From assembly GCA_944373095.1 (NCBI GenBank), contig CALWAK010000005.1, positions 1 to 44,004 on the forward strand: DNA of 44,004 bases, given 5' to 3'. Positions 11,701 through 37,822 of the stretch are shown here, one piece after another (positions within the stretch are counted from its first letter, which is position 1; every line of letters starts with the position of its first letter). Origin of the DNA: an uncultured Bacilli bacterium. GTDB taxonomy: Bacteria; Bacillota_I; Bacilli_A; RF39; UBA660. Made by a program: the position numbers and the translations under genes. A model generated the notes under the pieces. The model was not told the origin of the DNA. It worked only from the letters and a program-made list of their open reading frames with translations, and searched no databases.

Positions 11701-11778
11701 TAAAGTAATTTCATCAAAATGTTTATATACATAATCTTTTAACATTGGATTAGGTAATAATTTTAAAACTTTTCTCAT
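8725..11778 (-). CDS. Giant helical-repeat protein of unknown function, paralogue of 11850-14648
   Basis: 1017 residues, start ATG 11778 behind GGGGG. The N-terminal third has repeats of about 35 residues with a pattern like GYIPxKEDxxxNPSLKDYxxLxDKAFxxDPSIxxFY. Clear examples are NYIPSKEDFFINPSLKDYPL and RGYIINKKDIINNPELSYS. Such units usually stack as paired helices. A long helical middle follows. The C-terminal 300 residues form a separate domain with NTAGGKTYDEVLL, GDVILIRDNNNRLISRILLI, RRGNVINM and FPHADFCNTVILV, which is nearly the same in the neighbour. It has an extra N-terminal segment of about 150 residues compared with that neighbour. There is no signal peptide or membrane helix. 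I do not recognise the family. AUA codons are strikingly common. Confidence 0.8.
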   Translation of the reverse strand: MRKVLKLLPNPMLKDYVYKHFDEITLEDFYDIINLIELPLELFKLNNTLNTNSDVLSFMLDINIYSFRYFKRIALNKVCIDKISNSNILITEEDLINYPELLTNKSLYNRLLNIYPNTVNKLKIGLDTDITYLESINYIPNKDDLTNWKINSSKKLLSNAIKNNSGLLIYIKELDEDLVNLAISNNYIPSKEDFFINPSLKDYPLLLDKAFLQDPSIIIFYKRKYLTLDKVSSAINRGYIINKKDIINNPELSYSPIFMEYAIKYNPSFILLIGDTCNINPFIVKEVLNTYNIREEDLINYPNLTRNTTIMHFLPQYKLYNAYLSKEDKINYISIYLNKNFSSNVIELPFFKQKNKLKELFNCLIIDINEEDIEVQKTYYNILNNIIDNIMYYRYIKSKNTFIYPDIVILHKDIIKSFNNIDNIINNILIFTNNKVSKEYIIDNIKRFYNIYVNTNTLTLNDTYIFCNYILNIHKNIFISNGKKVLINNIIQELKLSKRKELNIINSFKLKRITYLISIKDYNTLGISEDIFNKLLIDTKYNILNNKYIKNHNIVIDSIKLDILINKFKELGYIDNTIVSSILDITDSKVIKYIVNSFLKIKYKLINNIDINTSIISTNDINKLNYNNYLILDKNRYINNIAKLLLELDNTNIDSILDNKDILYEIRYLIPLLDIISELDINTYINILINYKRIKDKLNNNISIYNLINLANLYSTYNTIEALVLGSNITNILGEENINIYVNYYLKMLNRYTSSIPPIYITTNDYILESGVYSDINRLLIGHIPNINSCIKLNNTAGGKTYDEVLLKDTGDVILIRDNNNRLISRILLIRRGNVINMVTNNITSYPYELYKLIANEILRQSIDDNINYIFVNCKSVDNYTNYNLIVNNDFEDKFPHADFCNTVILVGCKDSNININFEDIVIPKYFKSRRKINYTPSEEDITKLLALKSLIDNNTSILDSFDINNYKTNILGEDWYIGIKYDNTLDIVILSNTDTRSYEEINYIKETLLLNRKRLK

Positions 11779-11830: not shown

Positions 11831-11859
11831 AAAAAATTAATGTGTTAACTCACATTAAT
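11829..11859 (-). terminator. Terminator of the 11850-14648 gene
   Basis: Perfect 9-base stem (11836-11844 with 11851-11859), followed on the minus strand by a long T run (A run 11829-11836 on plus). The gene's TGA stop lies at the loop and arm junction. Confidence 0.8.
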
Positions 11860-14648: not shown

Positions 14649-14720
14649 ATTTTCAACTCCCATATATTAAAATTTTAACACATTTATATATAATTTAAAA
14701 GTAATTAAAAATTATTGTCA

Positions 14721-23524: not shown

Positions 23525-23782
23525 ATGAAGGAAGCAACTGGTGAATTAAATATGACTGTTGTAACAGTAGTTGCTATTGCGGCAATAGGTGCCTTCTTTT
23601 ATGCATTTGTTTGGCCTGCAATTCAAGCAAGTATTAAACAAAGTACAAGATGTTCTAATGCAGTTGGATGTGATTGTAGTGCTGGAGATACTTGCCAATG
23701 TAGTTATTATCTAGATGATGGAACTATTTCTACAGAAAAGATAACTTGTCCAAATCCTAGTTATAATGAAAATGACAAATAA
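23525..23782 (+). CDS. Pilin-like short protein, Cys-rich tail (secretion cluster 1)
   Basis: 85 residues. The N-terminus MKEATGELNMTVVTVVAIAA leads straight into one hydrophobic helix ending FFYAFVWP, then a short outer tail with six Cys in pairs (RCSNAVGCDCSAGDTCQC and later C). The next three proteins begin in the same way (M[KR]Exx G). This layout of short polar leader with Gly, hydrophobic helix and small ectodomain is that of Tad or type IV-like minor pilins. No Glu stands at position +5 after the Gly, so processing by a standard prepilin peptidase is uncertain. It is first in the cluster and closely related to the next gene. Confidence 0.75.
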   Translation: MKEATGELNMTVVTVVAIAAIGAFFYAFVWPAIQASIKQSTRCSNAVGCDCSAGDTCQCSYYLDDGTISTEKITCPNPSYNENDK

Positions 23783-23821
23783 TCTAAGATTTATACTTTA
23801 TGAATTGGAAGGAAAATAAGT

Positions 23822-24055
23822 ATGAAAGAAGCTACTGGGGAATTAAATTCTACTGTTATTGTAGTTATAGCTGTTAGTATCCTAGCGGCTTTTTTCTACA
23901 TGGTAATTTGGCCAATGTTAAAAAAAAATATGGATCAGAATAGTAAGTGTAGTGATGCATGGTGTGAGAAATGTACTGATCCTGCTGGATGTCAAATGGT
24001 TGTATGTCACTATGGAGATAATGATAATACAATTATGTGTCCATGGAAAGGTTAG
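23822..24055 (+). CDS. Pilin-like short protein, Cys-rich tail (secretion cluster 2)
   Basis: 77 residues, a clear paralogue of the preceding protein: MKEATGELNSTVIVVIAVSI, helix ending FFYMVIWP, then a Cys-rich tail (SKCSDAWCEKCTDPAGCQ and two further Cys). GGAAGG precedes ATG 23822. The even number of Cys and their clustering suggest disulfides in an extracytoplasmic domain. The gene is 39 bases after the first and 6 bases before the third, within one operon. Tandem duplication of a pilin-like subunit is the likely origin. Confidence 0.75.
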   Translation: MKEATGELNSTVIVVIAVSILAAFFYMVIWPMLKKNMDQNSKCSDAWCEKCTDPAGCQMVVCHYGDNDNTIMCPWKG

Positions 24056-24061
24056 TAAATT

Positions 24062-24538
24062 ATGAAAGAATCGTTTGGTGCGTTAAGTATAACAACCATA
24101 TTTGTAACATTAATAATTCTTTTTTCTGGATACTTATGTATATCAGTTAATCAAACTAAAGCGTATAGTGTAAAAAATGAATTAGTAAATATTATTCAAA
24201 GGCACAATGGAGTTGATACTACTACTATTGATGAAATTGCAGGGCATTTAACGGAAGTTGGTTATAGATCAGTTGGAAAATGTGATGAAGATGATGGTAT
24301 TGGGTATACTATATCTGGGAGTAAAAGTCAAACTAAAGCTAATTACTGTATAAAATGTGTAAATATCAATATAAATCTTAATGATCCTTATAATCAATTT
24401 CCTAATGCTACTTATTATAAAGTAAAAGTATTCTTTTCACTAGATTTACCTATTGTAAATGATGTATTTAAATTTTATCTTAAGGGAACGACTAAAACTC
24501 TTTATTATCCAGTAAATGGAGGAGGCTGTTCCGTATGA
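24062..24538 (+). CDS. TadE-like/pseudopilin-like protein (secretion cluster 3)
   Basis: 158 residues. MKESFGALSITTIFVTLIIL gives the shared leader and helix, then KAYSVKNELVNIIQRH as the start of the lollipop helix, and an outer domain with GYRSVGKCDE, YCIKCVNINI, KVKVFFSLDLPIVNDVFKFY and a last strand LKGTTKTLYYPV. The segment with LP, a turn and F-x-x-x-G-x-T is like TadE-family minor pilins. It is paralogous to the next protein and overlaps it by 4 bases (ATGA). Confidence 0.72.
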   Translation: MKESFGALSITTIFVTLIILFSGYLCISVNQTKAYSVKNELVNIIQRHNGVDTTTIDEIAGHLTEVGYRSVGKCDEDDGIGYTISGSKSQTKANYCIKCVNININLNDPYNQFPNATYYKVKVFFSLDLPIVNDVFKFYLKGTTKTLYYPVNGGGCSV

Positions 24539-25026
24539 GAGAGACTATTGGAACTACTTGGATTTTTCAACTTGTTATAATATTTATATTAATATTTGCT
24601 TCATATTTAGCAATAATGACTAATTATTCTAAAGCATTTAAATCTAAAAATGAAGTATTAAATATAATTGAAAAATATGAAGGATTAACTAGTGGCAATT
24701 TAAAAGGAATTGGAATAATAAACAATTATTTATCGGCTTCAGGATATAATTCAATGGGTACTTGTGAAGCAGGATATTATGGTGCTGTTAGTTTAAATAA
24801 TTCAAGCACTAGTGCCTTTGAATATGTTGGAAATGGTAGTAATAAAAAATATTATTATTGTGTTCAAAAAGTAACTTTTACTGGTGTTAAAGTAAAAAGT
24901 TATTATAATGTCGTTTTATTCTTTAATCTTAATTTACCTGTTTTAGGAAATTTATTTACATTTAGAGCTAATGGAACTACAACAGAACTTGAAGTTACTT
25001 ATGATCAAGATTTATTTGGAATATAG
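24535..25026 (+). CDS. TadE-like/pseudopilin-like protein (secretion cluster 4)
   Basis: 163 residues, starting in the 4-base overlap with the preceding gene. MRETIGTTWIFQLVIIFILI and KAFKSKNEVLNIIEKYEGL match the previous protein's plan. The outer domain YNSMGTCEAGYYG, YYYCVQKVTF, YYNVVLFFNLNLPVLGNLFTF and NGTTTELEV aligns with its paralogue throughout. Conserved Cys pairs could bond. It is probably a membrane-inserted minor pilin that works with the three proteins before it. Confidence 0.72.
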   Translation: MRETIGTTWIFQLVIIFILIFASYLAIMTNYSKAFKSKNEVLNIIEKYEGLTSGNLKGIGIINNYLSASGYNSMGTCEAGYYGAVSLNNSSTSAFEYVGNGSNKKYYYCVQKVTFTGVKVKSYYNVVLFFNLNLPVLGNLFTFRANGTTTELEVTYDQDLFGI

Positions 25027-25038
25027 AAGGAGGATTTT

Positions 25039-26094
25039 ATGAATGTTATAATATCAAATCGTTATAGTGAAATGCTTACTAATTTAAATATAGATATTAT
25101 AAAAAATGTACGTGGTGAATACGAACCAGAAATCATAATAGCAAACTTTGAAAACTTCTTTTTTAATAAAATGATATTAGATATAACTGCTGTTACTGGG
25201 TATAAAAATATAACTAATATTCAAAAATTAGCATCAGGTTTAGATATGAATAAAGTCATCCTTTTATTAGATGATTCTCCAGAAGTAAATTCACCAAGTT
25301 ATTTATCTGGATTAGTATCTATGGGTATATATAATTTTACTAGAAACATAGATTCAATTGAATATTTAATTAATAATCCGAATACATATAAAGATGTAGC
25401 ACACTTACATATTATTGGTGATAATGGCTCTTCTAGTCAGCCAAATTTAAATATTAATATTAGTGCAGGTAGTGTAAATTCTAACTTTTTTAATGAATCT
25501 ATAAATAGAGTATCAATGGGTTCGAGAGTAATTGCTATTAAAAATGTTACTGAACATGCTGGAGCAACTACATTAATTTATATGTTAAAAAAACAACTTG
25601 AAAGAAATTACAAGGTACTTGCTATTGAAGTAGATAAAAATGATTTTGTTTATTTTAATGATTCTGATTTAAGAACTTGTAATACAGGTGAACTAGATTC
25701 AATTATTAAAAATCCTAATAGTAATTATGATGTTATTTTAGTAGATATTAATGAGTCTCCTAAGATAGCCTCTATTAAAGAAGTAATTCATTTAATTGAA
25801 CCTAGTACAATTAAGTTAAATAAACTTATTAGAAAAGATAGAGCAGTTTTAACTAAAATGAAGAATTATAAAATTGTTTTGAATAAAAGTCTTTTAAGTA
25901 GTAAAGATGTATCAGAGTTTGAATATGAATCACGTTGTTCAATATTTGAGTCTATACCTCCATTAGATGATAAGAAAGAACAAAATCCAATCTTAAATAA
26001 TTTATTAAATAAATTAGGCTTTAATAAACAAGAACCAGTAGGCGGCGTTAAAAAGCCTGTAGGCAAATTATTTGGTATTGTAAAGGATGAGTAA
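25039..26094 (+). CDS. TadZ/CpaE-like MinD-family protein with altered Walker A
   Basis: 351 residues, AGGAGG before ATG 25039. The N-terminal 120 residues have receiver-like alternating strands and helices (IIIANFENFF, KVILLLDDSPEV, LVSMGIYNFTRN). The C-terminal part is a MinD/ParA-like P-loop domain: VIAIKNVTEHAGATTLIYML takes the place of KGGVGKTT, KVLAIEVDKNDF is the switch region and YDVILVDINES the Walker B region. The signature Lys is missing, as in TadZ/CpaE relatives. TadZ proteins localise Tad pilus machines at the cell pole. Placed between the pilin-like genes and the VirB genes, it would fit as a positioning or assembly factor. The C-terminal tail is Lys- and Pro-rich. Confidence 0.7.
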   Translation: MNVIISNRYSEMLTNLNIDIIKNVRGEYEPEIIIANFENFFFNKMILDITAVTGYKNITNIQKLASGLDMNKVILLLDDSPEVNSPSYLSGLVSMGIYNFTRNIDSIEYLINNPNTYKDVAHLHIIGDNGSSSQPNLNINISAGSVNSNFFNESINRVSMGSRVIAIKNVTEHAGATTLIYMLKKQLERNYKVLAIEVDKNDFVYFNDSDLRTCNTGELDSIIKNPNSNYDVILVDINESPKIASIKEVIHLIEPSTIKLNKLIRKDRAVLTKMKNYKIVLNKSLLSSKDVSEFEYESRCSIFESIPPLDDKKEQNPILNNLLNKLGFNKQEPVGGVKKPVGKLFGIVKDE

Positions 26095-26155: not shown

Positions 26156-26488
26156 ATGTTCTTAATGAATTTATCACCTGCTACAGTTTGTACTGAATTA
26201 AAACCTGTTTTAAATCTTATTGGCATGGTAATAACTGCTGTTAAAATTGTTATTCCAATTTTATTAATTTTATTTGGTATGTTGGATGTAGGTAAAAGTG
26301 TAGTAGCTAGTAAACCAGAAGAAATATCAAAAAGTATTAAAAGTTTTGCTTTCCGTGCTATTGCTGCAGTTTTAATTTTCTTTATTCCTGCAATTGTTGG
26401 CTTAATCATGCAAACTGTTGCTGAAACTGGGGATCAAGATGCTAAAGGTTGGGAAACTTGCAAAGATAATTTATATTTAAATTTTTAA
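26156..26488 (+). CDS. VirB2/TrbC-like two-helix membrane protein A
   Basis: 110 residues. Two hydrophobic helices (about 20-44 VITAVKIVIPILLILFGML and about 68-90 AIAAVLIFFIPAIVGLIM) flank a short basic loop (SKPEEISKSIKSFAFR). That is the layout of VirB2/TrbC pilins and related two-helix proteins of Gram-positive secretion systems. The downstream protein at 26553 repeats the same core, including the KPxE loop. Its own consensus promoter and a following terminator (26488-26519) suggest it is made in excess, as expected for a major subunit. The Cys in the N- and C-terminal tails could be outside. Confidence 0.7.
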   Translation: MFLMNLSPATVCTELKPVLNLIGMVITAVKIVIPILLILFGMLDVGKSVVASKPEEISKSIKSFAFRAIAAVLIFFIPAIVGLIMQTVAETGDQDAKGWETCKDNLYLNF

Positions 26489-26519
26489 AGTGATATTTTT
26501 TACAAATATTACTTTTTTT
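26488..26519 (+). terminator. Terminator after the VirB2-like gene
   Basis: An 11-base AT-rich stem with one G-T pair (26488-26498 with 26504-26514), then TTTTT. The following TATAAT (26524-26529) is the -10 of the next unit, so terminator and promoter abut. Confidence 0.6.
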
Positions 26520-26552
26520 ATGCTATAATTTTTTTGATAGAGGTGAAATTAT

Positions 26553-27215
26553 ATGTTTAAAACTTCAAATAAAATTTCGTTAACTTTAATATTTTTTTTA
26601 ATTTCACTATTTTCTTATAGTAACGTTGTATTAGCTGAAGAAATAAAACTTGGATATAATGAAAAAATAACAAAAAGTACCAATGCTGCTGGTTGTACTT
26701 CTAGTAATACTAGTTGTGTTACAACAAAAAGCGGTCAGTATGCAACTTCAACATTTACTTGTGAAGTAACCTCTTTAGCTAAAGATTGTACTGCTACAGT
26801 TAATATCGGTGGTCAAGCTTATGATGTAGTTGTTGGAAAAGGTAGTACTATGGGGGGCGGAACAACTTCTGAAGGCAGTGGAGCTGGTAGAGATGAAGCA
26901 ACTAACGAAAATAATAATAGTGGTACTTTAACTTGTAATTATATATTGGGAGATTATAACGACCCAGAAGATTTGGGATATTACCTTGCTAAGTTGTTAG
27001 AAGTTATAAAAATAGCAGGTCCTGTTTTAGTTATAGTTATGACCATAGTAGATTTAGTAAAGATAATTGCTTTAGGAAAGCCAGATGAGTTAAATAAATT
27101 AGTTGTAAAATCAATAAAAAGAATAATTTATGCAGTATTATTATTCATTATTCCATCATTACTAGATTGGGTATTTAAATTATTTAGCGTTTACGGGGTT
27201 TGTATTCCAAGTTAG
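26553..27215 (+). CDS. VirB2-like two-helix protein B with signal peptide and ectodomain
   Basis: 220 residues, ATG 26553 after AGAGGTG. A signal peptide (ISLTLIFFLISLFSYSNVVLA, AEE cut site about residue 30) is followed by a Thr-, Ser- and Gly-rich outer region with four Cys (CTSSNTSC, FTCEV, DCTATV) and a Gly-rich linker. The last 85 residues repeat the VirB2-like core of the preceding protein: KIAGPVLVIVMTIVDLVKII, GKPDELNKLVVKSIKR, AVLLFIIPSLLDWVF. It can be viewed as a VirB2-type protein with an added extracellular domain. It begins the unit that runs through the VirB6-, VirB3- and VirB4-like genes. Confidence 0.72.
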   Translation: MFKTSNKISLTLIFFLISLFSYSNVVLAEEIKLGYNEKITKSTNAAGCTSSNTSCVTTKSGQYATSTFTCEVTSLAKDCTATVNIGGQAYDVVVGKGSTMGGGTTSEGSGAGRDEATNENNNSGTLTCNYILGDYNDPEDLGYYLAKLLEVIKIAGPVLVIVMTIVDLVKIIALGKPDELNKLVVKSIKRIIYAVLLFIIPSLLDWVFKLFSVYGVCIPS

Positions 27216-27226
27216 GAGGTATTAAA

Positions 27227-29323
27227 ATGTATTTATTATACTCGTTTCAACAAGGATTGTTAGGCAACATAGGAGAATTTTTTCATCGTGTTTTAATATG
27301 GTTGTTTTTATTTATTGATACATTTGTTTATTGGCTAATAAATATTTCTTATCAAACATTTTTAGCAATAAGTCAGATAAGAATTTTTAGTGATGAAGAC
27401 ATATATGATTTATCCCAAAGAATATATATACTAATTGGTGTTTTCGCGTTATTTTTTGTAGCGTATGCATTATTAACGGCAATTGTAAATCCTGATAATA
27501 GTAAAAAGGATGATAAATCGTTAGGAAAAATTGTTCCTAATATTGCAGTAGCAATTATTGGAATAGCTATTGTTCCTGCAGTATTTAATATTATGTATGA
27601 TGTACAACATGCAGTATTATGTGGTAATGTAATTCCAAAGTTAGTTTTAGGTAATTCTTATAATGATGGATTCGATATTGATAATACCAATAGTAATAAA
27701 CTCGGTTCTCAAATGGCTACGTTATTATTTAAATCATTTTTTTATGTTCAAGATGAAAATGGAGATCCTGCTGATTTATCCCAAGCAGATACAATAGCAA
27801 GTACAATTTACGAAAATGATTGTAATGGGAGTGGATGTCTTACTTTATCTCAGGCATATAAAAATGCTGAAAATGGCTCTTCATTTTTTTCGTTTAGGAA
27901 TTTTTCGGATGCTGTTGTTGACGGAAAGGCTGGTTATTTATTCATAGTTTCAACGCTTGCTGGTGGTTTTTGCGTTTATGTTTTAGTATCACTTTGTCTA
28001 GATATGGCTTTAAGAGCGGTAAAATTATCTTATTTGCAAATAATTGCTCCATTACCATTATTAACGACAATAATTCCTGGGCAAAAAAAAGTTCTTACAA
28101 ATTGGATAAAAAAAACAACAAGTTGCTTTATTGAAGTATTTGTTAGATTATTTGTTGTTATTTTTATAGCATATATAATGCGTACTCTAGATCAAGTTTT
28201 AACAAATTTGCGAGGAACAGGAGGTATTTATTGTGGAGATATAAGTACGATTGTTTGGCTATTAGTTAAAGCTGCAACTATAGTTGGCTTATTCTGGTTT
28301 ATTAAAATAGCTCCAAAACTAATTTCTGATATCACTGGTATGGATAGCAAAGGATTTAAACTTGGTATTAAAGATAAACTTGCTGAATCTGGAGCTTTCC
28401 AAGTAGTTGGCGGACTTGGAGCTGGTGCGACAGCTGGTGTAAGAAATTTAACAAAAATTCCTCAGCATTTGATGAATGGTGCTAGCAAGGGAAAAAGTAT
28501 GCCTTGGAAGGTTTTTCGAGGCGGTCTAGGGGCTTTAAGAGGTGTAGGCGGCGTCTTTGCTGGTGCAGGTAGTGGATTTGCTCGAGGAGTAAAATCTAAC
28601 ACTGGAACAAAAGGATATCGAGATTTAGTAGGTAATACATCGAGAGCAGCTCTTGATGCAGAGCAAGCAAGAATTAATAGAGAATTATATGCTAAAGAAC
28701 ATGGTGATAATATAATTGGTATAGCGCAAGGTCATATAAAAGATGCTGCTACATCAACTAAAGATACTCTAACTAGTTGGATATCTGGAAAACCATCAAA
28801 CAACAATGCCAAAGCTGAAAGATTAAATAAAATTGAAACTGCTAGAAAAGCAATTTACGACGCTGTAAAAGATGATAAAAGCGTTAAAGTTATAGATGCG
28901 TTATATGAGGGAGAAATAGAAAAAGTAAAGAATTCAAATCTTTCATTATCAGCAAAAAGAAGTGAAATAACTAGACTTCAAACTGCTTGGGGTGATGAAA
29001 AGGACAAAGCAATTGCAAGTACAATTGCCTCTAGATCTAACAATATTGACATGAAGAGACTTTTAACTAATTATTCAGATATAATTGCAAATGAATTACC
29101 ACTTATTACAGAAACTTTAACTGAAACGGGAAATATTGGCAAATCAAATTATAAAGATTTACTTAATGATCCTAGTAGATTAAGAATGGATATAATGAGT
29201 GGTGCAGCTTTTCAATTTAATGGGAATGATAAAGGCATTGGTTTAATAATTGGTAAGGATTCTGCTAAATATTCTGCTTCATTACGAATTAAACAAGCAC
29301 AAAAAGATAGCGGAAAAAAATAG
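27227..29323 (+). CDS. VirB6/TrbL-like polytopic channel protein
   Basis: 698 residues from ATG 27227, which has AGGAGG 7 bases upstream. An upstream TTG in frame lies before that site. About seven or eight membrane helices span residues 15-370. An outer loop (about 140-215) has paired Cys (NDCNGSGC). The first cytoplasmic-side motif RAVKLSYLQIIAPLPLLTTI and WIKKTTSCFIEVFVRLFVV is typical of Gram-positive VirB6/TrbL proteins. The C-terminal 300 residues are soluble, with a Gly- and Ala-rich part (GGLGAGATAGVRN, RGGLGALRGVGGVFAGAGSG) and then helices. It would form the inner-membrane channel with the PrgI- and VirB4-like proteins encoded next. Confidence 0.85.
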   Translation: MYLLYSFQQGLLGNIGEFFHRVLIWLFLFIDTFVYWLINISYQTFLAISQIRIFSDEDIYDLSQRIYILIGVFALFFVAYALLTAIVNPDNSKKDDKSLGKIVPNIAVAIIGIAIVPAVFNIMYDVQHAVLCGNVIPKLVLGNSYNDGFDIDNTNSNKLGSQMATLLFKSFFYVQDENGDPADLSQADTIASTIYENDCNGSGCLTLSQAYKNAENGSSFFSFRNFSDAVVDGKAGYLFIVSTLAGGFCVYVLVSLCLDMALRAVKLSYLQIIAPLPLLTTIIPGQKKVLTNWIKKTTSCFIEVFVRLFVVIFIAYIMRTLDQVLTNLRGTGGIYCGDISTIVWLLVKAATIVGLFWFIKIAPKLISDITGMDSKGFKLGIKDKLAESGAFQVVGGLGAGATAGVRNLTKIPQHLMNGASKGKSMPWKVFRGGLGALRGVGGVFAGAGSGFARGVKSNTGTKGYRDLVGNTSRAALDAEQARINRELYAKEHGDNIIGIAQGHIKDAATSTKDTLTSWISGKPSNNNAKAERLNKIETARKAIYDAVKDDKSVKVIDALYEGEIEKVKNSNLSLSAKRSEITRLQTAWGDEKDKAIASTIASRSNNIDMKRLLTNYSDIIANELPLITETLTETGNIGKSNYKDLLNDPSRLRMDIMSGAAFQFNGNDKGIGLIIGKDSAKYSASLRIKQAQKDSGKK

Positions 29324-29338
29324 AATAGGGAGGGACTT

Positions 29339-29665
29339 ATGCAAAACTTTTTAATACCAGCGAATAGTAAAAAATCTAAATTAATTTTTGGCTTTTTTAC
29401 TGTTAAAGATTTAATTATATTTGGAGTTGGTGCAATTGTTACAATGTTTATGCTATTAATATTTAATTCTAATAGTATTACACAAGTATTATTAATGTGT
29501 ATGCCTCTTATGATTTCATTATTTCTAGTTATGCCTGTGCCATATTACCATAATGTTATGACTTTAATTGAAAATGTATTAAGTTATTATAGTTCAAATA
29601 ATCCAAGGGAATATACGTGGAAGGGTTGGTGTGTAAAAGATGTCTATGGAAAAAACAGAGAATAA
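29339..29665 (+). CDS. PrgI-family (VirB3-like) membrane protein
   Basis: 108 residues, ATG 29339 after AGGGAGG. The start QNFLIPANSKKSKLIFGFFT, two adjacent helices (about 25-70, VKDLIIFGVGAIVTMFML and VLLMCMPLMISLFLVM) and the tail NPREYTWKGWCVKDVYG are the PrgI pattern. PrgI/VirB3 proteins bind VirB4 at the membrane. The stop overlaps the next ORF by 26 bases, so translation is probably coupled, as is usual for this gene pair. Confidence 0.85.
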   Translation: MQNFLIPANSKKSKLIFGFFTVKDLIIFGVGAIVTMFMLLIFNSNSITQVLLMCMPLMISLFLVMPVPYYHNVMTLIENVLSYYSSNNPREYTWKGWCVKDVYGKNRE

Positions 29666-30203
29666 TAATTATAAATATTGTGAAGATTGGTTACCAGTAA
29701 AAAATATTGCTAACGGAATGATTCAACTAGAAGATGGGAATTTCGTTTGCGGAGTTAAAGTTGAACCTAAAAATATATTTATTTTAGATACAGGATCTCA
29801 AAATAATATAATTACACAACTTAGAAATTTATATAATGCAATAGATTTTGAATTTTGGCTTACAATTGCTGATAGACCAGTTGATATTAATGCTTATCTT
29901 GCTCAATTGCAAATTTTATATCAAAAAACTAACAGTAATATTACTAGAAAATTAATTATGCAAGATATAAATAAAGCTAATTCTTTTATGGGTGCTGAAT
30001 ATAATATAGTTGATACAGAATATTTTATTTTATTTAAAGAAAAAAGAATAGATATAATTCAAAAAAGACTTAGAACTTTAATAACTGGATTAGCAAATTG
30101 TGGTTTAAATTCTATGCAAGTATCAAATACTGATTTAAGAATGATTTTAGATAACTTCTTAAATGGTGGTGTTGCAACAAACTTTGGGACGGTGATGTTT
30201 TAA
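29640..30203 (+). CDS. VirB4 N-terminal domain encoded as a separate ORF
   Basis: 187 residues. Its content (DWLPVKNIANGMIQLEDGNF, VCGVKVEPKNIFIL, FWLTIADRPVDINAYLAQL, YFILFKEK, LRTLITGLANCGLNSMQVS) is that of the N-terminal membrane-contacting part of Gram-positive VirB4/TraE proteins. It has no ATPase motifs. It ends at TAA 30201-30203, whose last A is also the first base of the next ATG (TAATG). The start could also be the ATG at 29646. Either VirB4 was split into two polypeptides that reassemble, or a frameshift joins them; the overlap signal and intact motifs favour a true split. Confidence 0.8.
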   Translation: MSMEKTENNNYKYCEDWLPVKNIANGMIQLEDGNFVCGVKVEPKNIFILDTGSQNNIITQLRNLYNAIDFEFWLTIADRPVDINAYLAQLQILYQKTNSNITRKLIMQDINKANSFMGAEYNIVDTEYFILFKEKRIDIIQKRLRTLITGLANCGLNSMQVSNTDLRMILDNFLNGGVATNFGTVMF

Positions 30204-31990
30204 TGTTAAATATAAAAAGTGAATTAGCCCCTAAAGGGATGAAATTTAATGTAACTGACTTTATTATGAGTGGAAAGTATTGTACTGTATTTACAATTAT
30301 TAGTTATCCTAAATATATTGGTCCTGGATATTTGGCAGATTTAAGTAATATAGCAGGTGTAAAAGTGGTTGCAAAACACATACCAATAGAATTTAGTACA
30401 ATGTCTAAAATGATTAATAAAGAAATTGCGGATTTAAAACAAAGATATCAAAATGAAAATGACCGTACTATTCAAGAAAGAATTAGACAAGATTATGAAT
30501 CTTTAGAACAATTTGTACAAATGTTAGCTGCTACCCAATCTAGAATATTTGATTTTCAACTACATTTATTAATTGTTGGGGATTCAAAAGAAGATTTAGA
30601 AAATAAAAAAATAAATGTTAGAAGTTTTTTAGATGCTATGGGAATGCAAGGTATTCAATTAATGTTTGAACAAGAAAAAGCATTAAAATCTATTTTACCT
30701 ATATTTCCTAAACAAGATTTAGAAGAAAGAATTGGTACACCAATTCCATCACCAACTCTAGCAGCCATGTATCCATTTATTTTTGATAGTGTTAAAGATA
30801 TTGGAAATTCTACATTGCTTGGTGTTGATTATTCTGGTGGTGTAGTATTATTTAATCAATTTTTATATCAAATAAAAAAAGAATATAATAGAAATAATGC
30901 TAATATGATTATATTGGGTACATCAGGTAGTGGTAAATCAACTGCAAGTAAATTACTTTTAAGAAGCCATATAAGAAATGGTTATAAAGTAATAGCCATA
31001 GATCCAGAAGGTGAACTAGAAGAGATGGCTAGATTTCTTGATGGGGACTTCTTAGATATGGGTAAAGGTGGAGAATTCGGTATGATTAATCCATTAGAGA
31101 TAGTTGCTGATGCTGATGAAGAAGAATTAGATAAAGGTCTAGGATATACAATACTTACAAGAGCCTTGCAATCCTTAAAAGCATTCTTAAAATATTATTC
31201 GCCTGATATTGAAGAAGATGTATTAACAATGTTTAGTGAAATAATGCAAGATACATATAAAAGGTTTAGAATAGATTATAATACTGATTTTTCTAAGTTA
31301 ACTAGTATGGATTATCCAACTTTTGATGATGTTTATGCAACTATTAGAGGAAGAATATTATCAATTCCTGATAAAACTAGAGAAAAAGATATTTTAGAAA
31401 GATTAGAACTTAAAATTAGACCTTTTACTAAAGAATTAAGATATTATTTTAATGGTCATACAACTTTAAATATTAATAGTGATTTTGTTGTATTTAATAT
31501 AAAAGATTTAATGAATAGTAATGAAAATATTAGAGATGCAATATTCTTTAATATCTTAAAATATGCCTGGGGATTATGCCTTGATAAGACTGTAACATCA
31601 GTATTAAGTGTTGATGAAGCACATGTATTATTATCTTCTCATAATGAGTTAGGAGCTGAATTTTTAGCACAAATTCAAAGACGTGCTCGTAAATACAATA
31701 GTGGTACTATTATTATTACTCAACAGCCAACTGATTTTGCTGCTCAAAATTTAATCATGCATGGCAAAGCTATTTTTGATAATGCGTCATACTATTTAGT
31801 TATGGGATTAAAAAAACAAGCTGTTGATGATTTATCTATGTTAATAGATTTAAATGAAGCTGAAAAGAATAATATTAAATATTATAATCAGGGACAAGGA
31901 TTATTTATTTGTGGCTCTAGAAGAATGCAAGTATCCATTATTGTTACTAATGAAGAATTAGACTCATTTGGTTCGGGCGGTGGGCTATAA
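30203..31990 (+). CDS. virB4: VirB4-family secretion ATPase (catalytic part)
   Basis: 595 residues. The N-terminal 230 residues continue the VirB4 accessory domain (APKGMKFNVTDFIMSGKYCT, LLIVGDSKEDLENK). Walker A is GTSGSGKST (about 239-247), followed by KVIAIDPEGELEEMARF. Walker B is VLSVDEAHVLL (about 470) and the later TIIITQQPTDF and YYLVMGLKKQAVDDL blocks are typical of the family. VirB4 powers pilus or channel assembly at the inner face of the membrane. Translation probably depends on the preceding ORF through the one-base TAATG overlap. A terminator follows at once (31990-32013), ending this transcription unit. Confidence 0.93.
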   Translation: MLNIKSELAPKGMKFNVTDFIMSGKYCTVFTIISYPKYIGPGYLADLSNIAGVKVVAKHIPIEFSTMSKMINKEIADLKQRYQNENDRTIQERIRQDYESLEQFVQMLAATQSRIFDFQLHLLIVGDSKEDLENKKINVRSFLDAMGMQGIQLMFEQEKALKSILPIFPKQDLEERIGTPIPSPTLAAMYPFIFDSVKDIGNSTLLGVDYSGGVVLFNQFLYQIKKEYNRNNANMIILGTSGSGKSTASKLLLRSHIRNGYKVIAIDPEGELEEMARFLDGDFLDMGKGGEFGMINPLEIVADADEEELDKGLGYTILTRALQSLKAFLKYYSPDIEEDVLTMFSEIMQDTYKRFRIDYNTDFSKLTSMDYPTFDDVYATIRGRILSIPDKTREKDILERLELKIRPFTKELRYYFNGHTTLNINSDFVVFNIKDLMNSNENIRDAIFFNILKYAWGLCLDKTVTSVLSVDEAHVLLSSHNELGAEFLAQIQRRARKYNSGTIIITQQPTDFAAQNLIMHGKAIFDNASYYLVMGLKKQAVDDLSMLIDLNEAEKNNIKYYNQGQGLFICGSRRMQVSIIVTNEELDSFGSGGGL

Positions 31991-32058: not shown

Positions 32059-34425
32059 ATGAATAATTCTGAAGAAAAAAAAGATCAAAATAAAGTAAAT
32101 ACCACTAATAATACTGGTGTTAATAAACTAGGTGAACAGCAAAAATTAAATAGTAGGCAGCAATATACTAATAATCAAGATAATACTGGAGAAACTTCAT
32201 TTAATAATAGTGGAGTATTGCCTCCTAAAGTTAATTCTTCTCACGTTAATGATTTAGAAAAAGATGATAAAGAACAACCACAAACTTTTAATAAAACTAG
32301 TAGAGTTTCAAATGCTGCTATTGATACTGATGGCAATGGTAGTAGTGTGCCTCAAAAGGGAACTCAAAAAGTTACAGAAAATGCTGGAGAGAAAGCTGGA
32401 AAAGCAGCCGGAGCTTATTTAGGTGGTCCAATTGGAAGTAAGATTGGTGGTTTTTTAGGTAAACAAATTGGAAAAAATATTAATTCTAAAACTATTATAA
32501 AAAATTTAGCGAATACACCTATTTTAATTTCTAAAGTTAATTCTCCTAAACAAAATAAAAACTCTGAAATAACTCAAGAAAATAATGATGTTCAGGAAAA
32601 TAAAGATCCTAAGCAAAATAGTGAGAATTCTAAGCAAAATGATAGCAATTCAACCGAACAAAATAGTCAAGAAGATAATACTTCAAAAAATGATAAACAA
32701 AGTAACCCATTAGCGTTAAAAAAGAAAAGTAAAATTTTTGGTGAAGCAAGTATACCTATAAAATTAGTTGCTTCTAGTTTTATAGGTGTATATATTTTAT
32801 TATTTATTATAGTAATAATAATTGGTTTTATAATGGTAGGTCAAAGTGGCAAATCATTAGATGTTGATGAAAATGGTGTAAATTGTATAAATATTACATC
32901 ATGTGATAGTGTAATTATTCCTAGTGGTCCATCAGCTGGAACTTATGATATTACTGAATATTTAGCAGGAGCGGTAAACTATTATTTTGGTACATATGAT
33001 AATGCTGAAGTGTATAAAGCAATGGGCTTAATTGTTAACACTGATTTAATTACTTATGCAGATATGGATTTTGAAAATAGTACATGTACTTTAAATGATA
33101 AAACTAAATTTAATAATGTAAGTATTATTTCAAATTCTACTGAAGATAATTTTGATGAAAATAATGAGCAAGTAGATTCAAAATATAATTTAGTTTCTTA
33201 TGGAACTTTAAATAGTAAAAATGAAATAATTATAGGTTATTCGCCAACTATTGAACCAAATGTTGCTGCTTTAAATAGTAGTGCAGATTATAAAACTATT
33301 ATTGAAGAATATTTAAGAGCAAAAGAATTAGAAATAGAAAACTTTGGTATATATAAAATTTGTGGTATGAGTGGTTCAGAAAATTTAACTTACGTTGACA
33401 TGAACGTTTGTGATAATGTAACTATAACAAATGGCAAATTTATGGGAACTTATACTTTAGACGATTATGTTGCTGGCGTAATTAACCATGAAGTCGGGGG
33501 ATTTAAAGATGAGGAAACTTTCAAAGTGTTTTCTATAGCAGCTCGTACTTATTTACTTACTAGATCTAAAAATGTTGATGGTGTATGTTATATGATAGAC
33601 AGTAATGATACTCAAAAATTTACACCTACAACTGATTCGTTAATTATAAATGCGGTTGCTCAAACAAGTGGGCAAGTAATGACTGATGGGAATGGAAATT
33701 TAATTTCAACGGAATATGATTCTTTTTGCTATGCTAGTAAAGATCAGAATTATTATTATTTAGCTCAAAAAAATCAAGCCATTCCTATTAGTTGGGCATA
33801 TGCTAATGTTCCAAAATGGAGTGGGACATCGTATTTAGAAAATCCATGCGGTACTGATGGTGATGGCGGTCATGGGCGTGGAATGAGCCAATATGGTGCT
33901 TATTATATGTCTACAGAAGAAAGTAAAAATTATAATGAAATATTAAGTTTCTATTATGATACAGGAACTTTATCGACAACTTTAAAAGTTGACTCAATTA
34001 ATGGAGAAGTAAATTCTTATGGTCTAATGAATCCTTTAGAAACTACTGGTAATTGTTCATCTTTATTTGGTAATAGAATTCATCCAATAACTGGTATCTT
34101 AAAATCTCATGGTGGCGTTGATATAGCGCGTGCAGCAAATACGCCAATATATGCTGCTCAAGATGGCACTGTTACTTTAAATGGTTATGATAAAGATGGA
34201 TATGGATATTATGTTATAATTACAGGTAATAATGGAATTTCAACAGTATACGCACACATGATAAGACCATCAAATTTACAAATTAATCAAACAATTACCG
34301 CTGGAACATTAGTTGGTTATGTTGGTCATACTGGTGCTGCAACAGGCAATCATTTACATTTTGAAGTTCGTGTAAATGGAACAAGAGTAGATCCATTACA
34401 ATATTTACCAGGTTTATGTGGGTGA
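32059..34425 (+). CDS. Membrane-anchored bifunctional wall hydrolase: SpoIID-like lytic transglycosylase plus M23 endopeptidase
   Basis: 788 residues, AGAGGTGG before ATG 32059. Domains in order: an Asn-, Gln- and Lys-rich cytoplasmic tail with a Gly-zipper-like stretch (about 111-145); one membrane helix (about 236-262); a degenerate SpoIID-like segment (about 288-440) that keeps GTYDITEYLAGAV but lacks the active Glu; an intact SpoIID domain (about 455-640) with GTYTLDDYVAGVINHE (Glu 478), AARTYLLTR and HGRGMSQYGA (from 605); and an M23 peptidase (about 660-785) with SHGGVDI (His 684, Asp 688) and HLHFEV (765-770). SpoIID cuts bare glycan strands and M23 cuts peptide bridges. Within the cluster it takes the VirB1 role of opening the wall for the channel. 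Confidence 0.9.
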   Translation: MNNSEEKKDQNKVNTTNNTGVNKLGEQQKLNSRQQYTNNQDNTGETSFNNSGVLPPKVNSSHVNDLEKDDKEQPQTFNKTSRVSNAAIDTDGNGSSVPQKGTQKVTENAGEKAGKAAGAYLGGPIGSKIGGFLGKQIGKNINSKTIIKNLANTPILISKVNSPKQNKNSEITQENNDVQENKDPKQNSENSKQNDSNSTEQNSQEDNTSKNDKQSNPLALKKKSKIFGEASIPIKLVASSFIGVYILLFIIVIIIGFIMVGQSGKSLDVDENGVNCINITSCDSVIIPSGPSAGTYDITEYLAGAVNYYFGTYDNAEVYKAMGLIVNTDLITYADMDFENSTCTLNDKTKFNNVSIISNSTEDNFDENNEQVDSKYNLVSYGTLNSKNEIIIGYSPTIEPNVAALNSSADYKTIIEEYLRAKELEIENFGIYKICGMSGSENLTYVDMNVCDNVTITNGKFMGTYTLDDYVAGVINHEVGGFKDEETFKVFSIAARTYLLTRSKNVDGVCYMIDSNDTQKFTPTTDSLIINAVAQTSGQVMTDGNGNLISTEYDSFCYASKDQNYYYLAQKNQAIPISWAYANVPKWSGTSYLENPCGTDGDGGHGRGMSQYGAYYMSTEESKNYNEILSFYYDTGTLSTTLKVDSINGEVNSYGLMNPLETTGNCSSLFGNRIHPITGILKSHGGVDIARAANTPIYAAQDGTVTLNGYDKDGYGYYVIITGNNGISTVYAHMIRPSNLQINQTITAGTLVGYVGHTGAATGNHLHFEVRVNGTRVDPLQYLPGLCG

Positions 34426-34429
34426 TAAA

Positions 34430-35170
34430 ATGAGAAAGATAAAATTAATAGTAATATTATTTTCTATAATTGTATTAAGTGGATGTACAGTTAATTACAC
34501 TATTAATATAGACGAAGAAAGTTTTAGTGAAAAAATAAGTATTAGCGATTTTATAACTGTTACTAGAACAATTGATGAAATTACAACATCTTATCAAGAG
34601 TATTATCCAACTACTATTGAAGGAGTAGCAGATTTGAATTCGCTAATATGTGAGTCTATTGAAAAGTGTTATAAAAAAAGTTTGGCATTACAAAGCAATA
34701 CTGGATATATATATAATTTAGAAAATAGTAATTTTTTAGATAACTTTGTAAAGACTACAAGTTGGTTATTTTCAAATAATACAAAAAGTTTTTTAAATGA
34801 TGAAAATAATATTATAATATCTACAAGTAATGGATTAAAATATTTTGATTTGATAACTGATTTAACTGAAATAAATATAACTTTAGAAACTGATTTAAAT
34901 GTTGTTAAAAATAATGCTGATATAGTAAATGGTACTTCTTATACTTGGGTGTTTACTAGGGAAAATTATTTAACTAAGAATATATTTATAAATATAGAAA
35001 AGAAAAAAGAAGATAATCAAGATAGTGAAAATAAGGATGAAGATGATAAAGTTAATGAAGAAGAAATAGTTAATGAAAATAAAAATAATAAATATACTAT
35101 TTTTATTATAATAGGTATATTGATAGTTTATTTTATAATAATAAGATTTATAATCAAAAAGAAAAGATAG
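34430..35170 (+). CDS. Lipoprotein with additional C-terminal membrane anchor
   Basis: 246 residues from ATG 34430, preceded by GGGTGA. A GTG start at 34418 would lie inside the previous gene and lacks support. The signal KLIVILFSIIVLSGC has a textbook lipobox (LSGC, Cys 19). The outer domain begins VNYTINIDEESFSEKIS and contains three more Cys; strands and helices alternate with no recognised fold. An acidic and Lys-rich linker (KKKEDNQDSENKDEDDK) precedes a C-terminal helix (YTIFIIIGILIVYFIIIRFI) with a basic end. Being tethered at both ends is unusual. The 4-base-scale spacing to the hydrolase gene implies co-translation and a joint role in the secretion apparatus. Confidence 0.78.
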   Translation: MRKIKLIVILFSIIVLSGCTVNYTINIDEESFSEKISISDFITVTRTIDEITTSYQEYYPTTIEGVADLNSLICESIEKCYKKSLALQSNTGYIYNLENSNFLDNFVKTTSWLFSNNTKSFLNDENNIIISTSNGLKYFDLITDLTEINITLETDLNVVKNNADIVNGTSYTWVFTRENYLTKNIFINIEKKKEDNQDSENKDEDDKVNEEEIVNENKNNKYTIFIIIGILIVYFIIIRFIIKKKR

Positions 35171-35196: not shown

Positions 35197-35221
35197 GTAA
35201 TATAGAAATTGGGTGTTGTTA

Positions 35222-37822
35222 ATGAAATTTAGAATAACTTCTAAGGATTTATTGATTTTTGTGATATTTTGTATATTTTTACTTTATTTATGTGCTATTG
35301 GTGTATTAAATTTTATTAACTTTGGCGCTGAAGGTAAATTATGGGGGCTAAATCCTTTACCTGCTTTTACAGGTACTTATTTACCTATAACGCTATTACT
35401 ATTTTTCTTAGCACTAATTATGATTTTTTCTTCAGTTTCTTCTTATGTTTTTGAAAGAGAAAAAAAAGGTGTTGGTATAACTGTTAAAGAAAAAGAAGAA
35501 AAGGGTTATTCAAACTGGGCTAAAGATAAAGATATAAAAACAGATAGAGATGTAGAAAAAGTAGTTACAACTGATAAAACTTTAAAAGCAGCTGGTGTAC
35601 CACTTTGTACTGGCAAAAATAATGAAATGTGGGTAGATAATGGTGAGTATCATACACTTGTAATAGGTTCATCTGGTTCAGGTAAATCACGTTGTGTTGT
35701 TAAACCAATGGTTAATTTATTGGCTAAAAAAGGTGAATCAATGATTATTACCGACCCAAAAGGAGAACTTTATATTGCTTCAGCAAATAAATTAAAAGAG
35801 TTAGGATATAAAGTAATAGTATTAAATTTTCGTGACCCTTTAAAAGGAAATGCGTGGAATCCTTTAACTTTACCATATCAATATTATAAAATGGGAAATA
35901 TGGATAAAGCTACTGAATTATTAGATGATGTTGCTTTAAATATTTTATATGATGCAAATAATAAAGGTGAACCTTTCTGGGAAAAATCTGCTGCCGATTA
36001 TTTTTCTGGATTGGCATTAGGATTATTTCAAGATGCTAAAGAAGAAGAAATTAATATTAATTCAATCAGTTTAATGGCTACTATTGGTGAAGAAAGACTA
36101 GGAGCATCAAATTATGCTAAGGAATACTTTTTATTAAAAGGCGAATCTTCTAGTGCTTATACTTTTGCATCTGGAACTATTAATGCTCCTAGTGATACAA
36201 AAGGTGGTATAGTTTCTACTTTTAGACAAAAAATACGTTTATTTGCTTCTCGTGAAAATTTATCAGAAATGTTAGGTCATAGTGACTTTAGTGTATTAGA
36301 TATTGGCCGTGAAAAAACTGCTGTATTTATTGTTGTTCATGATGAAAAAACTACATATCACGCTTTAGCAACAATATTTATCAAACAGTGCTATGAAACT
36401 TTAATAGATGTTGCTCAAGAAAATGGTGGTAAATTACCAATTAGGACTAATTTTATTTTAGATGAGTTTGCTAATATGCCTCCATTAAAAGATGTTGACT
36501 CTATGGTTACAGCAGCCCGTAGTAGACAAATGCGTTTTACTTTTATTATTCAAAACTTTGCCCAATTAAATGATGTATATGGTAAAGAAGTAGCAGAAGT
36601 AATTCGTGGTAACTGTGGTAATACAATATATTTGATCTCTACTGAACTTGCTGCTTTAGAAGAAATTAGTAAAATGTGTGGTGAGGTTAAATCTAAAGAA
36701 AAAGATAAAACTGCTTCAACGCCGTTAGTAACTGTTACAGATTTGCAAAAACTAAAATTAGGTGAAGCAATAATTATGCGTATTAGAAAAAGTCCATTCA
36801 AGACTAAATTGCCATTTAATGATAAAGTCGATTGGGGATATCAAGTTGTTGATGCTGATTTTCCGGTAAGAACTGTCAAACAAGTTGCCTTATTTGATAT
36901 AAAAAACTTTGTTAATGAAAAGAAAAAAGAAAAAAGTTTGGCAAATGGTGGTGCTAACCCATTTGGTGGTTTCTCACCATTTGGCGGAAATCCATTTGCA
37001 GCATCTCCTTTAGGTGGTTCTCCGTTTGGAAATAATAATTTTAATCCAAATCCATTTGGTAATATGGGAAATTCATTAAATAATAATCCTAATCCTTTTG
37101 GCCCAAGCCCATTATCAAATGCTAACACTAATAAAGCTGATAATAATTTATTTGGTAATAATTTTGATTTAGATGCAATGATGCGTGATATAGATAAAAA
37201 GATTGCTGAATTAGACGCTGAAGAGGCAAAGCAAAAAGAAAACTTAAATAAAAATTCAATAACAGAAGATGCTATTAAAACTTTAGAAAGTAATGTTAAA
37301 AAACCTAATATTGATGATTATTTAGGCTTGACTTCTAAAATAGATACTTCAAAAATAAAAGAAGAAGAAAAGAAACCTGATATAATAAGTAATGATAAAA
37401 CAATTGAGGATACAGCGAAAGTTGATGAAGATTTACTTATTGATATTAATATAAATAAAGAAATTAAGACTGATAATGATATATTAAAAAATATTGATAT
37501 AAAGCAGGCAATTGATAATCTATCTACTGAATATTCAAATATTTTAGAAAATAAAAAAGAAAGTATTGATGAATCAAATTATACATTACCTAGTTATGAT
37601 ACTTTAGAAGAAATTCCTATCAAAGAAGAAAAAATAGAAATTAATAATAAAATTGAAGAACCTAAAAATGAAACATTAAGTACAAATGAAAATTTAGTTA
37701 TCGAAAGAAATGAAGAAGATAAACCAAAAATAAATGTTGATGCTGATTCTGTAGTTATTAATAATAATGTTATTTCTGATGATGAATTTTTTGATGATTT
37801 CTTTGGGGATGACGACTTTTAG
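35222..37822 (+). CDS. virD4: VirD4/TraG-family type IV coupling protein
   Basis: 866 residues from ATG 35222 (GGGTG at 35211-35215; the GTG at 35213 lies in that site). Two N-terminal membrane helices (about 8-30 and 53-75) come first. Walker A is GSSGSGKSR (149-157), then MIITDPKGELY and VLNFRDPLKGNAWNPL, Walker B FILDEFANMPP (Asp 414), and AARSRQMRFTFIIQNFAQL. All are VirD4/TraG hallmarks. After residue 570 the protein changes to a disordered NPFG/SPFG-rich stretch, then a long acidic and Lys-rich tail ending in FFDDFFGDDDF. Coupling proteins pick substrates for the channel. With no relaxase in the window the cargo may be protein. Confidence 0.93.
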   Translation: MKFRITSKDLLIFVIFCIFLLYLCAIGVLNFINFGAEGKLWGLNPLPAFTGTYLPITLLLFFLALIMIFSSVSSYVFEREKKGVGITVKEKEEKGYSNWAKDKDIKTDRDVEKVVTTDKTLKAAGVPLCTGKNNEMWVDNGEYHTLVIGSSGSGKSRCVVKPMVNLLAKKGESMIITDPKGELYIASANKLKELGYKVIVLNFRDPLKGNAWNPLTLPYQYYKMGNMDKATELLDDVALNILYDANNKGEPFWEKSAADYFSGLALGLFQDAKEEEININSISLMATIGEERLGASNYAKEYFLLKGESSSAYTFASGTINAPSDTKGGIVSTFRQKIRLFASRENLSEMLGHSDFSVLDIGREKTAVFIVVHDEKTTYHALATIFIKQCYETLIDVAQENGGKLPIRTNFILDEFANMPPLKDVDSMVTAARSRQMRFTFIIQNFAQLNDVYGKEVAEVIRGNCGNTIYLISTELAALEEISKMCGEVKSKEKDKTASTPLVTVTDLQKLKLGEAIIMRIRKSPFKTKLPFNDKVDWGYQVVDADFPVRTVKQVALFDIKNFVNEKKKEKSLANGGANPFGGFSPFGGNPFAASPLGGSPFGNNNFNPNPFGNMGNSLNNNPNPFGPSPLSNANTNKADNNLFGNNFDLDAMMRDIDKKIAELDAEEAKQKENLNKNSITEDAIKTLESNVKKPNIDDYLGLTSKIDTSKIKEEEKKPDIISNDKTIEDTAKVDEDLLIDININKEIKTDNDILKNIDIKQAIDNLSTEYSNILENKKESIDESNYTLPSYDTLEEIPIKEEKIEINNKIEEPKNETLSTNENLVIERNEEDKPKINVDADSVVINNNVISDDEFFDDFFGDDDF
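36945..37115 (+). repeat. NPFG/SPFGG low-complexity repeat inside the VirD4 gene
   Basis: Short imperfect repeats encode variants of N-P-F-G, S-P-F-G-G and F-N-P-N-P-F-G about ten times over some 55 residues. No such stretch occurs in typical VirD4 proteins. Confidence 0.7.

Follow-up and report, generated by a model that had tools for sequence, protein, structure and literature searches.

A predicted wall hydrolase joining half a SpoIID, an intact SpoIID and an M23 peptidase in the VirB1 position of a type IV secretion locus of RF39 Bacilli

CwlT of Tn916, which serves in the VirB1 role, joins one glycan-cutting and one peptide-cutting domain. TraG of pIP501 likewise carries a glycan-cutting and a peptide-cutting domain on one protein of VirB1 role, and PrgK of pCF10, also encoded with its type IV secretion system (T4SS), combines a cytoplasmic N-terminal part and one transmembrane (TM) helix with several outside wall-hydrolase domains, namely a degenerate LytM, a muramidase and a CHAP domain (available text of PMC11323569). 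In the SpoIID-SpoIIP-SpoIIM engulfment machine, a glycan-cutting SpoIID acts beside a peptide-cutting partner. SpoIID is also used outside sporulation in Waddlia, where the enzyme is septal, lies outside any T4SS locus and is active on ShyA-treated sacculi, with no fusion mentioned in the available part of the source (PMC6635528), and SpoIID domains are known in polyvalent proteins of phages and conjugative elements (PMC5512222, in part). The Patescibacteria, finally, possess a monoderm T4SS that is conserved, mostly lacks a relaxase and has VirB2-like pilins, with hydrolases encoded near virB4, those just downstream of it being reported essential for epibiotic growth; SpoIID goes unmentioned in the accessible text of that source (PMC12102498).

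Here we describe a fused hydrolase encoded in a 44,004-nucleotide stretch of DNA (hereafter the window; contig CALWAK010000005.1) from an uncultured Bacilli bacterium of order RF39, family UBA660. Its ORF lies immediately 3' of VirB4 and ahead of VirD4, a placement conserved over the family, in a locus with the parts of a conjugative T4SS (VirB4, VirD4, VirB6 and PrgI/VirB3):

23525..25026, forward strand: four small pilin-like genes (85, 77, 158 and 163 aa), our own label, with no firm family match
25039..26094, forward strand: 351-aa protein matching only AAA_31 (E=0.081), which we take to be TadZ-like
26156..27215, forward strand: two VirB2-like pilin genes, weakly T4SS_pilin/Mbov_0395-like
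27200..29323, forward strand: VirB6-like gene resembling the Mbov_0396 family, its VirB6 match (NF045889) below the curated cut-off
29339..29665, forward strand: PrgI/VirB3-like gene
29640..31990, forward strand: VirB4 ATPase, as two genes (187 and 595 aa)
32059..34425, forward strand: fused hydrolase ORF, ATG start, 788 aa, in the VirB1 position
34418..35170, forward strand: 250-aa lipoprotein-like partner with a C-terminal helix (by reading)
35213..37822, forward strand: VirD4 coupling protein of the CD1115 family, over cut-off

In nearly all of the listed loci the VirB4 region (29339-31990 in the window) is divided among three genes, for PrgI, the N-terminal part and the C-terminal ATPase, and the Mycoplasma ICE VirB4 model NF045975 covers PrgI and both VirB4 genes as one protein. 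The 250-aa lipoprotein-like gene (34418-35170) lies 3' of the hydrolase in many relatives and belongs to no firm family. The hydrolase itself is laid out as follows:

32059..32751, forward strand: N-terminal part, residues 1-231, rich in Asn, Lys, Ser and Gln, predicted cytoplasmic
32752..32859, forward strand: single TM helix, residues 232-267
32899..33339, forward strand: SpoIID-like repeat, degenerate, residues 281-427, matching just the N-terminal half, with Tyr in place of Glu
33406..33963, forward strand: intact SpoIID domain, residues 450-635, by Pfam, motifs and structure match
33490..33492, forward strand: predicted catalytic Glu478
33871..33900, forward strand: HGRGMSQYGA motif, residues 605-614
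34105..34395, forward strand: M23 peptidase domain, residues 683-779, ligands H684, D688, H765 and H767

The initial annotation had proposed a degenerate SpoIID, an intact SpoIID and an M23 peptidase with all its ligands on one polypeptide, anchored by a single helix, and Pfam, motif and profile comparisons bear this out. SpoIID (PF08486) matches residues 464-542 (E=1.3e-9, 39 bits against a gathering score of 23), Peptidase_M23 matches residues 683-779 (E=1.2e-27, 96 bits), and the M23 ligands are all there, in an HxxxD motif from residue 684 and an HxH motif from residue 765. The only hydrophobic segment is that at 232-267; the 20 residues before it hold five basic and two acidic residues and the 20 after it none and four, a bias that fits the predicted N-in, C-out orientation. 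A DDHD match at residues 138-224 (17 bits against a cut-off of 28.3) falls in low-complexity sequence and was taken as chance. In a joint AlphaFold2 model (519 residues, pLDDT 72.6, pTM 0.44, 11 rows) the intact SpoIID, model residues 180-373, matches SpoIID of C. difficile (5i1t; Z 15.4, 3.3 A over 166 residues) and of B. anthracis (4rwr; Z 14.4, 2.6 A over 151), and the M23 part best matches StM23 (Z 19.5), DipM (19.0) and ShyA (18.9). The 50 Foldseek matches listed for this model were M23-type only, besides phage- or chaperone-like entries with M23 domains.

The layout is VirB1-like, in that a multi-domain wall hydrolase with one N-terminal TM helix is encoded in a T4SS cluster adjoining VirB4. 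Pfam finds no SLT/muramidase, CHAP or NlpC/P60 domain in the window's hydrolase, and since an SLT or muramidase domain with CHAP or NlpC/P60 is lacking, we regard the protein as VirB1-like in its working and do not file it in the VirB1 family. It shares with PrgK the cytoplasmic N-terminal part, the single TM helix and the presence of one degenerate domain among several outside the membrane, but its M23 domain is intact, its dead domain is half a SpoIID and the SLT/muramidase domain is absent. CwlT and TraG use other enzyme folds, with no SpoIID, and relative to the engulfment machine an M23 peptidase replaces the SpoIIP amidase/endopeptidase, on one chain and in a secretion locus. The best reading of the protein is a bifunctional, CwlT/PrgK-like hydrolase built from different enzymes.

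We consider it probable that the fused hydrolase opens peptidoglycan, in the manner of VirB1, CwlT or PrgK, as part of a chromosomal T4SS locus, with cooperating domains and the dead half as a module. The motifs of both enzymes are intact, the structure matches are good and the gene sits between VirB4 and VirD4, where the initial annotation had placed a predicted glycan- and peptide-cutting protein in the VirB1 position; counting against this reading, the score for TIGR02669 (SpoIID/LytB) is 74.2, below the cut-off of 83.3. In the mechanism we propose, one helix would anchor the protein and place its ectodomain in the wall, the M23 domain would cut stem-peptide crosslinks and the intact SpoIID domain would cut the loosened glycan strands, leaving the VirB2/VirB6 channel a local gap in the wall of the cell itself; the half-SpoIID in front, which has lost its catalytic residue, may be a glycan-binding, spacer or restraining module.

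Cooperation of this kind is plausible by analogy. In the available text of PMC6635528, the Waddlia SpoIID, and similarly that of B. subtilis, acts on sacculi that ShyA, an M23-type D,D-endopeptidase, has already digested and frees anhydro-muropeptides from them; models of ShyA and ShyC are among the matches of the window's M23 domain. The window's protein combines these same two kinds of enzyme, and the result suggests that strands denuded by an amidase need not be the only substrate of SpoIID, which weakens the objection that an amidase is required. The C. difficile SpoIID, however, is described in the accessible part of PMC6221140 as inactive on peptidoglycan without SpoIIP, and an M23 endopeptidase leaves glycans undenuded, so the window's SpoIID domain could be weak alone.

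The segment preceding the intact domain had been read as a second SpoIID-like copy that lost its Glu. Homology and loss of the residue both hold, Tyr replacing Glu in all three congeneric proteins, but the segment amounts to only half a SpoIID and was seen in a single genus (3 of the 126 ORFs surveyed below). Against a profile built from other genera only, the first segments of these three proteins score 19.8, 23.6 and 26.0 bits (with the search space set to 1000, E 3.6e-5 to 4.6e-7), no shuffle out of 1500 exceeding 11.1 bits, and the active SpoIID domain as a BLASTP query retrieves all three (E 4e-8 to 1e-10). These comparisons show homology to SpoIID at the level of sequence. Alignment is restricted to profile positions 1-106/128 of 204; as aligned, the segment corresponds to the N-terminal half of SpoIID and lacks the half that bears HGxGMSQ.

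Structure prediction had also been suggested, to see whether both halves adopt the SpoIID fold, and this check is half answered. For the active half the structure matches agree, and the dead half shares with it, in the joint model, the order of strands and helices at a distance of 169 residues (E15-18, E25-28, H29-41, H47-64, E65-68 and E73-76 in the degenerate half; E184-187, E194-197, H198-210, H216-233, E235-237 and E240-242 in the active half), which suggests a SpoIID-like fold. Modelled by itself from three rows, the degenerate segment gives a poor model with a pLDDT of 31.9, and no structure match of the joint model is confined to it, which is uninformative either way. By analogy, the dead half would most likely be a glycan binder, spacer or restraint; the degenerate LytM of PrgK, which lowers the activity of its neighbouring domain in the available text of PMC11323569, is a precedent in a protein of the same role. 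The half-domain offers a natural experiment on how enzymes of this type are restrained.

To place the fusion among its relatives, we surveyed the wall-hydrolase slot in 126 ORFs, namely that of the window, that of a congener and 124 found 3' of VirB4C with a length of 320 aa or more, ORFs below 320 aa and those both cut at the 3' end and below 450 aa having been dropped. These come from 112 relatives with VirB4C, of 166 VirB4-bearing family genomes including the window's, a sample that favours closer relatives. Pfam, run on 125 ORFs (the cut ORF L107 being left out), finds SpoIID in 50, M23 in 45, CHAP in 20, NlpC/P60 in 15 and C39_2 in 15, with lysozymes, glucosaminidase, M15, GH25 and amidase in fewer; some slot ORFs are not hydrolases but a tRNA synthetase, ThiI and others. 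Local profiles, seeded from the slot proteins themselves and prone to miss divergent domains, detect at least one wall-hydrolase domain in 111 of the 126 ORFs and the SpoIID-M23 pair in 14, plus one in genome G101. Exactly one TM helix, N-terminal to the first domain, is present in 81 of the 87 slot ORFs with SpoIID or M23. The slot ORFs thus share a common layout and differ in their enzymes, and if our reading is right, what defines the VirB1 role is where the gene sits and how the protein is laid out, and not the family of the enzyme.

Among 20 slot proteins chosen for Pfam analysis, the partners of SpoIID include M23, NlpC/P60 with amidase, glucosaminidase, M15/VanY, CHAP, and M23 with C39 or tail lysozyme; in one protein M23 lies N-terminal to SpoIID, four (L035, L037, L059 and L068) have no SpoIID partner domain, and two (L048 and L069) have M23 but no SpoIID. 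On a VirB4C tree (FastTree; 113 tips, of which 11 without an assigned architecture were not counted), a minimum of 61 changes of slot architecture is required across the 102 scored tips, and nine of the SpoIID-M23 state, both counts being inflated by domains that the local profiles missed. The slot is a swappable, fast-changing wall-hydrolase cassette, in which SpoIID-M23 is one of many pairings.

We have seen SpoIID-M23 fusions only in this VirB4-downstream slot, and the idea that they might occur mostly outside secretion loci did not hold. Among the matches listed for 98 relatives, at least five besides the window's span SpoIID and M23 (G001, G002, G050, G045 and G033); the fusions of four of these lie directly downstream of VirB4C, and the G001 contig starts inside the fusion gene, with the 250-aa gene and VirD4 downstream. 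Across 296 genomes of the class, the spanning matches listed are those of the window and G101, the latter again downstream of VirB4C. None of 22 SpoIID ORFs sampled outside the slot, mostly best matches, has M23. No record among 72,556 plasmids and 50,697 phages covers 80% of the SpoIID-M23 pair, and a SpoIID-only query finds nothing in the plasmid records; the SpoIID of slot ORF L044 as query gives two weak matches, one annotated as an ordinary spoIID. A genome-contig scan returned three congeneric or near relatives and one deltaproteobacterial M23, and a viral-contig scan SpoIID relatives, none with M23 by local profiles. No title in our literature search concerned a SpoIID-M23 fusion. Separately, genome G032 encodes a second SpoIID protein (L039, 10294-12305; 431 aa) with a CHAP-like end by eye, outside the T4SS locus and accompanied by its own copy of the 250-aa gene.

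The locus around the slot, by contrast, is conserved. VirB4C is present in 166 of 193 family genomes, with VirB4 identity mostly 65-91% among the matches listed, and of 117 loci scanned, 113 have VirB4C and largely preserve the order of the genes. Sampling across the class finds VirB4C in 34 of the 38 genomes from the family (62-100% identity) and in 8 of the 258 from outside it, at 34% identity or less. A TadA/VirB11-family ATPase cluster, whose other parts are presumably TadB/TadC-like though with no firm family match, lies just upstream of the T4SS in one relative (L041, 12072-15819) and elsewhere than the T4SS locus in the window's genome; it is tied to the locus in some genera, a difference from the Patescibacterial T4SS, which also belongs to another phylum. 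The locus has the look of a family core, conserved and for the most part without a relaxase, more than that of a conjugative element. Tentatively, and as a possibility we would not yet favour, we propose, for this whole family of Bacilli with small genomes and sporulation genes, a mostly relaxase-less core machine composed of a monoderm T4SS and pilin genes, joined in some genera by the TadA/VirB11-type cluster, whose slot is repeatedly re-assembled from the hydrolase modules named above to suit the walls of attached cells; the window's protein would be one such tip, with SpoIID newly recruited to secretion. The slot and the conserved machine hold more interest than the fusion alone, and the machine may be the larger novelty; no title in our literature search joined RF39 with a T4SS.

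A related reading, which we judge rather unlikely yet worth testing, is that the hydrolase acts mainly on the wall of a neighbouring target cell, the locus being a contact-dependent delivery or uptake machine whose slot is retooled to partner walls. The locus core is conserved while slot architecture changes as often as counted above, domains named after phage tail lysozymes occur in the slot, few family members have a PF03432 relaxase, and there is a likeness to the Patescibacterial T4SS, itself mostly without relaxases, as presented in the available text of PMC12102498; fast domain exchange, relaxase scarcity and this parallel are what make the reading worth testing. Its anchor, however, sits in the producer's own membrane, and no partner organism for such contact is known. 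Wide variation between elements is, moreover, also a feature of the hydrolases of ordinary conjugative elements. The conserved locus gives a way into the question of how gut-type Bacilli with tiny genomes affect the cells around them.

A second alternative concerns the intact SpoIID, which could be a LytB-type enhancer or glycan binder, leaving M23 as the only working enzyme. Glu is kept in 55 of 63 slot SpoIID stretches, together with HGxGMSQ in 15 (the window's intact domain included) and without it in 40, and is missing in eight; slot SpoIIDs with Glu and without HGxGMSQ (L043, L090, L122 and others) suggest a second SpoIID-like type, and, with 40 stretches lacking the motif, many relatives may do without catalysis. 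Both Glu and HGRGMSQ are nevertheless kept in the window and its near relatives, which a mere binder would not need, and the degenerate copy next to the intact domain is an example of such loss. For the window's protein we accordingly consider this alternative unlikely and retain two predicted enzymes acting in a VirB1-type role.

It is more doubtful still that the locus is an ordinary integrative conjugative element with the hydrolase as its VirB1, despite the likeness of its proteins to Mbov_0396/0397 and CD1115 element proteins. PF03432, the relaxase class searched, is absent from the window's genome (a MAG about 90% complete) and passes its cut-off in no more than 10 of the 58 family genomes, VirB4 is near-confined to the family as given above, and the flanks are housekeeping genes (mutL, yqeH and miaA, by reading) that are also kept in one congener. 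A mobile-element identity is thus disfavoured. These findings, with the partner exchange and the half-domain, leave the initial interpretation as a whole partly supported, the peptidoglycan-opening component of a chromosomal T4SS locus being the reading we carry forward.

The window's genome encodes a separate SpoIID (277 bits against the TIGR02870 cut-off of 234.75) and a SpoIIP (160 bits against 123.15), with SpoIIQ-, SpoIIR- and YqfD-like proteins all below their cut-offs, and SpoIIP is present in 47 of 58 family genomes. This agrees with the prediction, in the available text of PMC10868615, that order RF39 is able to form spores. Twenty-one ordinary SpoIIDs form one clade (support 100/99) that excludes all 59 slot SpoIIDs. 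The genome's own SpoIID and SpoIIP and this separate clade together mark the slot SpoIID as a dedicated secretion paralogue and, with a normal spoIID, spoIIP and spoIIQ-like gene elsewhere in the genome, nothing was borrowed in place of sporulation; if true, an engulfment enzyme has been reused to serve a T4SS. That the fused hydrolase is instead an engulfment protein lying by chance near T4SS genes, as its SpoIID domain and the genome's sporulation set might suggest, is very improbable, and we reject an ordinary sporulation protein on its clade position, on its score of 48.2 for the sporulation SpoIID equivalog model TIGR02870 and on the genome's sporulation proteins, its own SpoIID among them, being separate genes while the slot is tied to VirB4 and VirD4 over the family.

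SpoIID, SpoIIP and SpoIIQ/SpoIIR-like genes (L166, 8180-9746 and 14245-14751; L172, 8265-9137) are kept in a genome of about 1.08 Mb, so a very small genome may still sporulate. Elsewhere in the window, two neighbouring large proteins, at 8725-11778 (1017 aa) and 11850-14663 (937 aa), look like paralogues.
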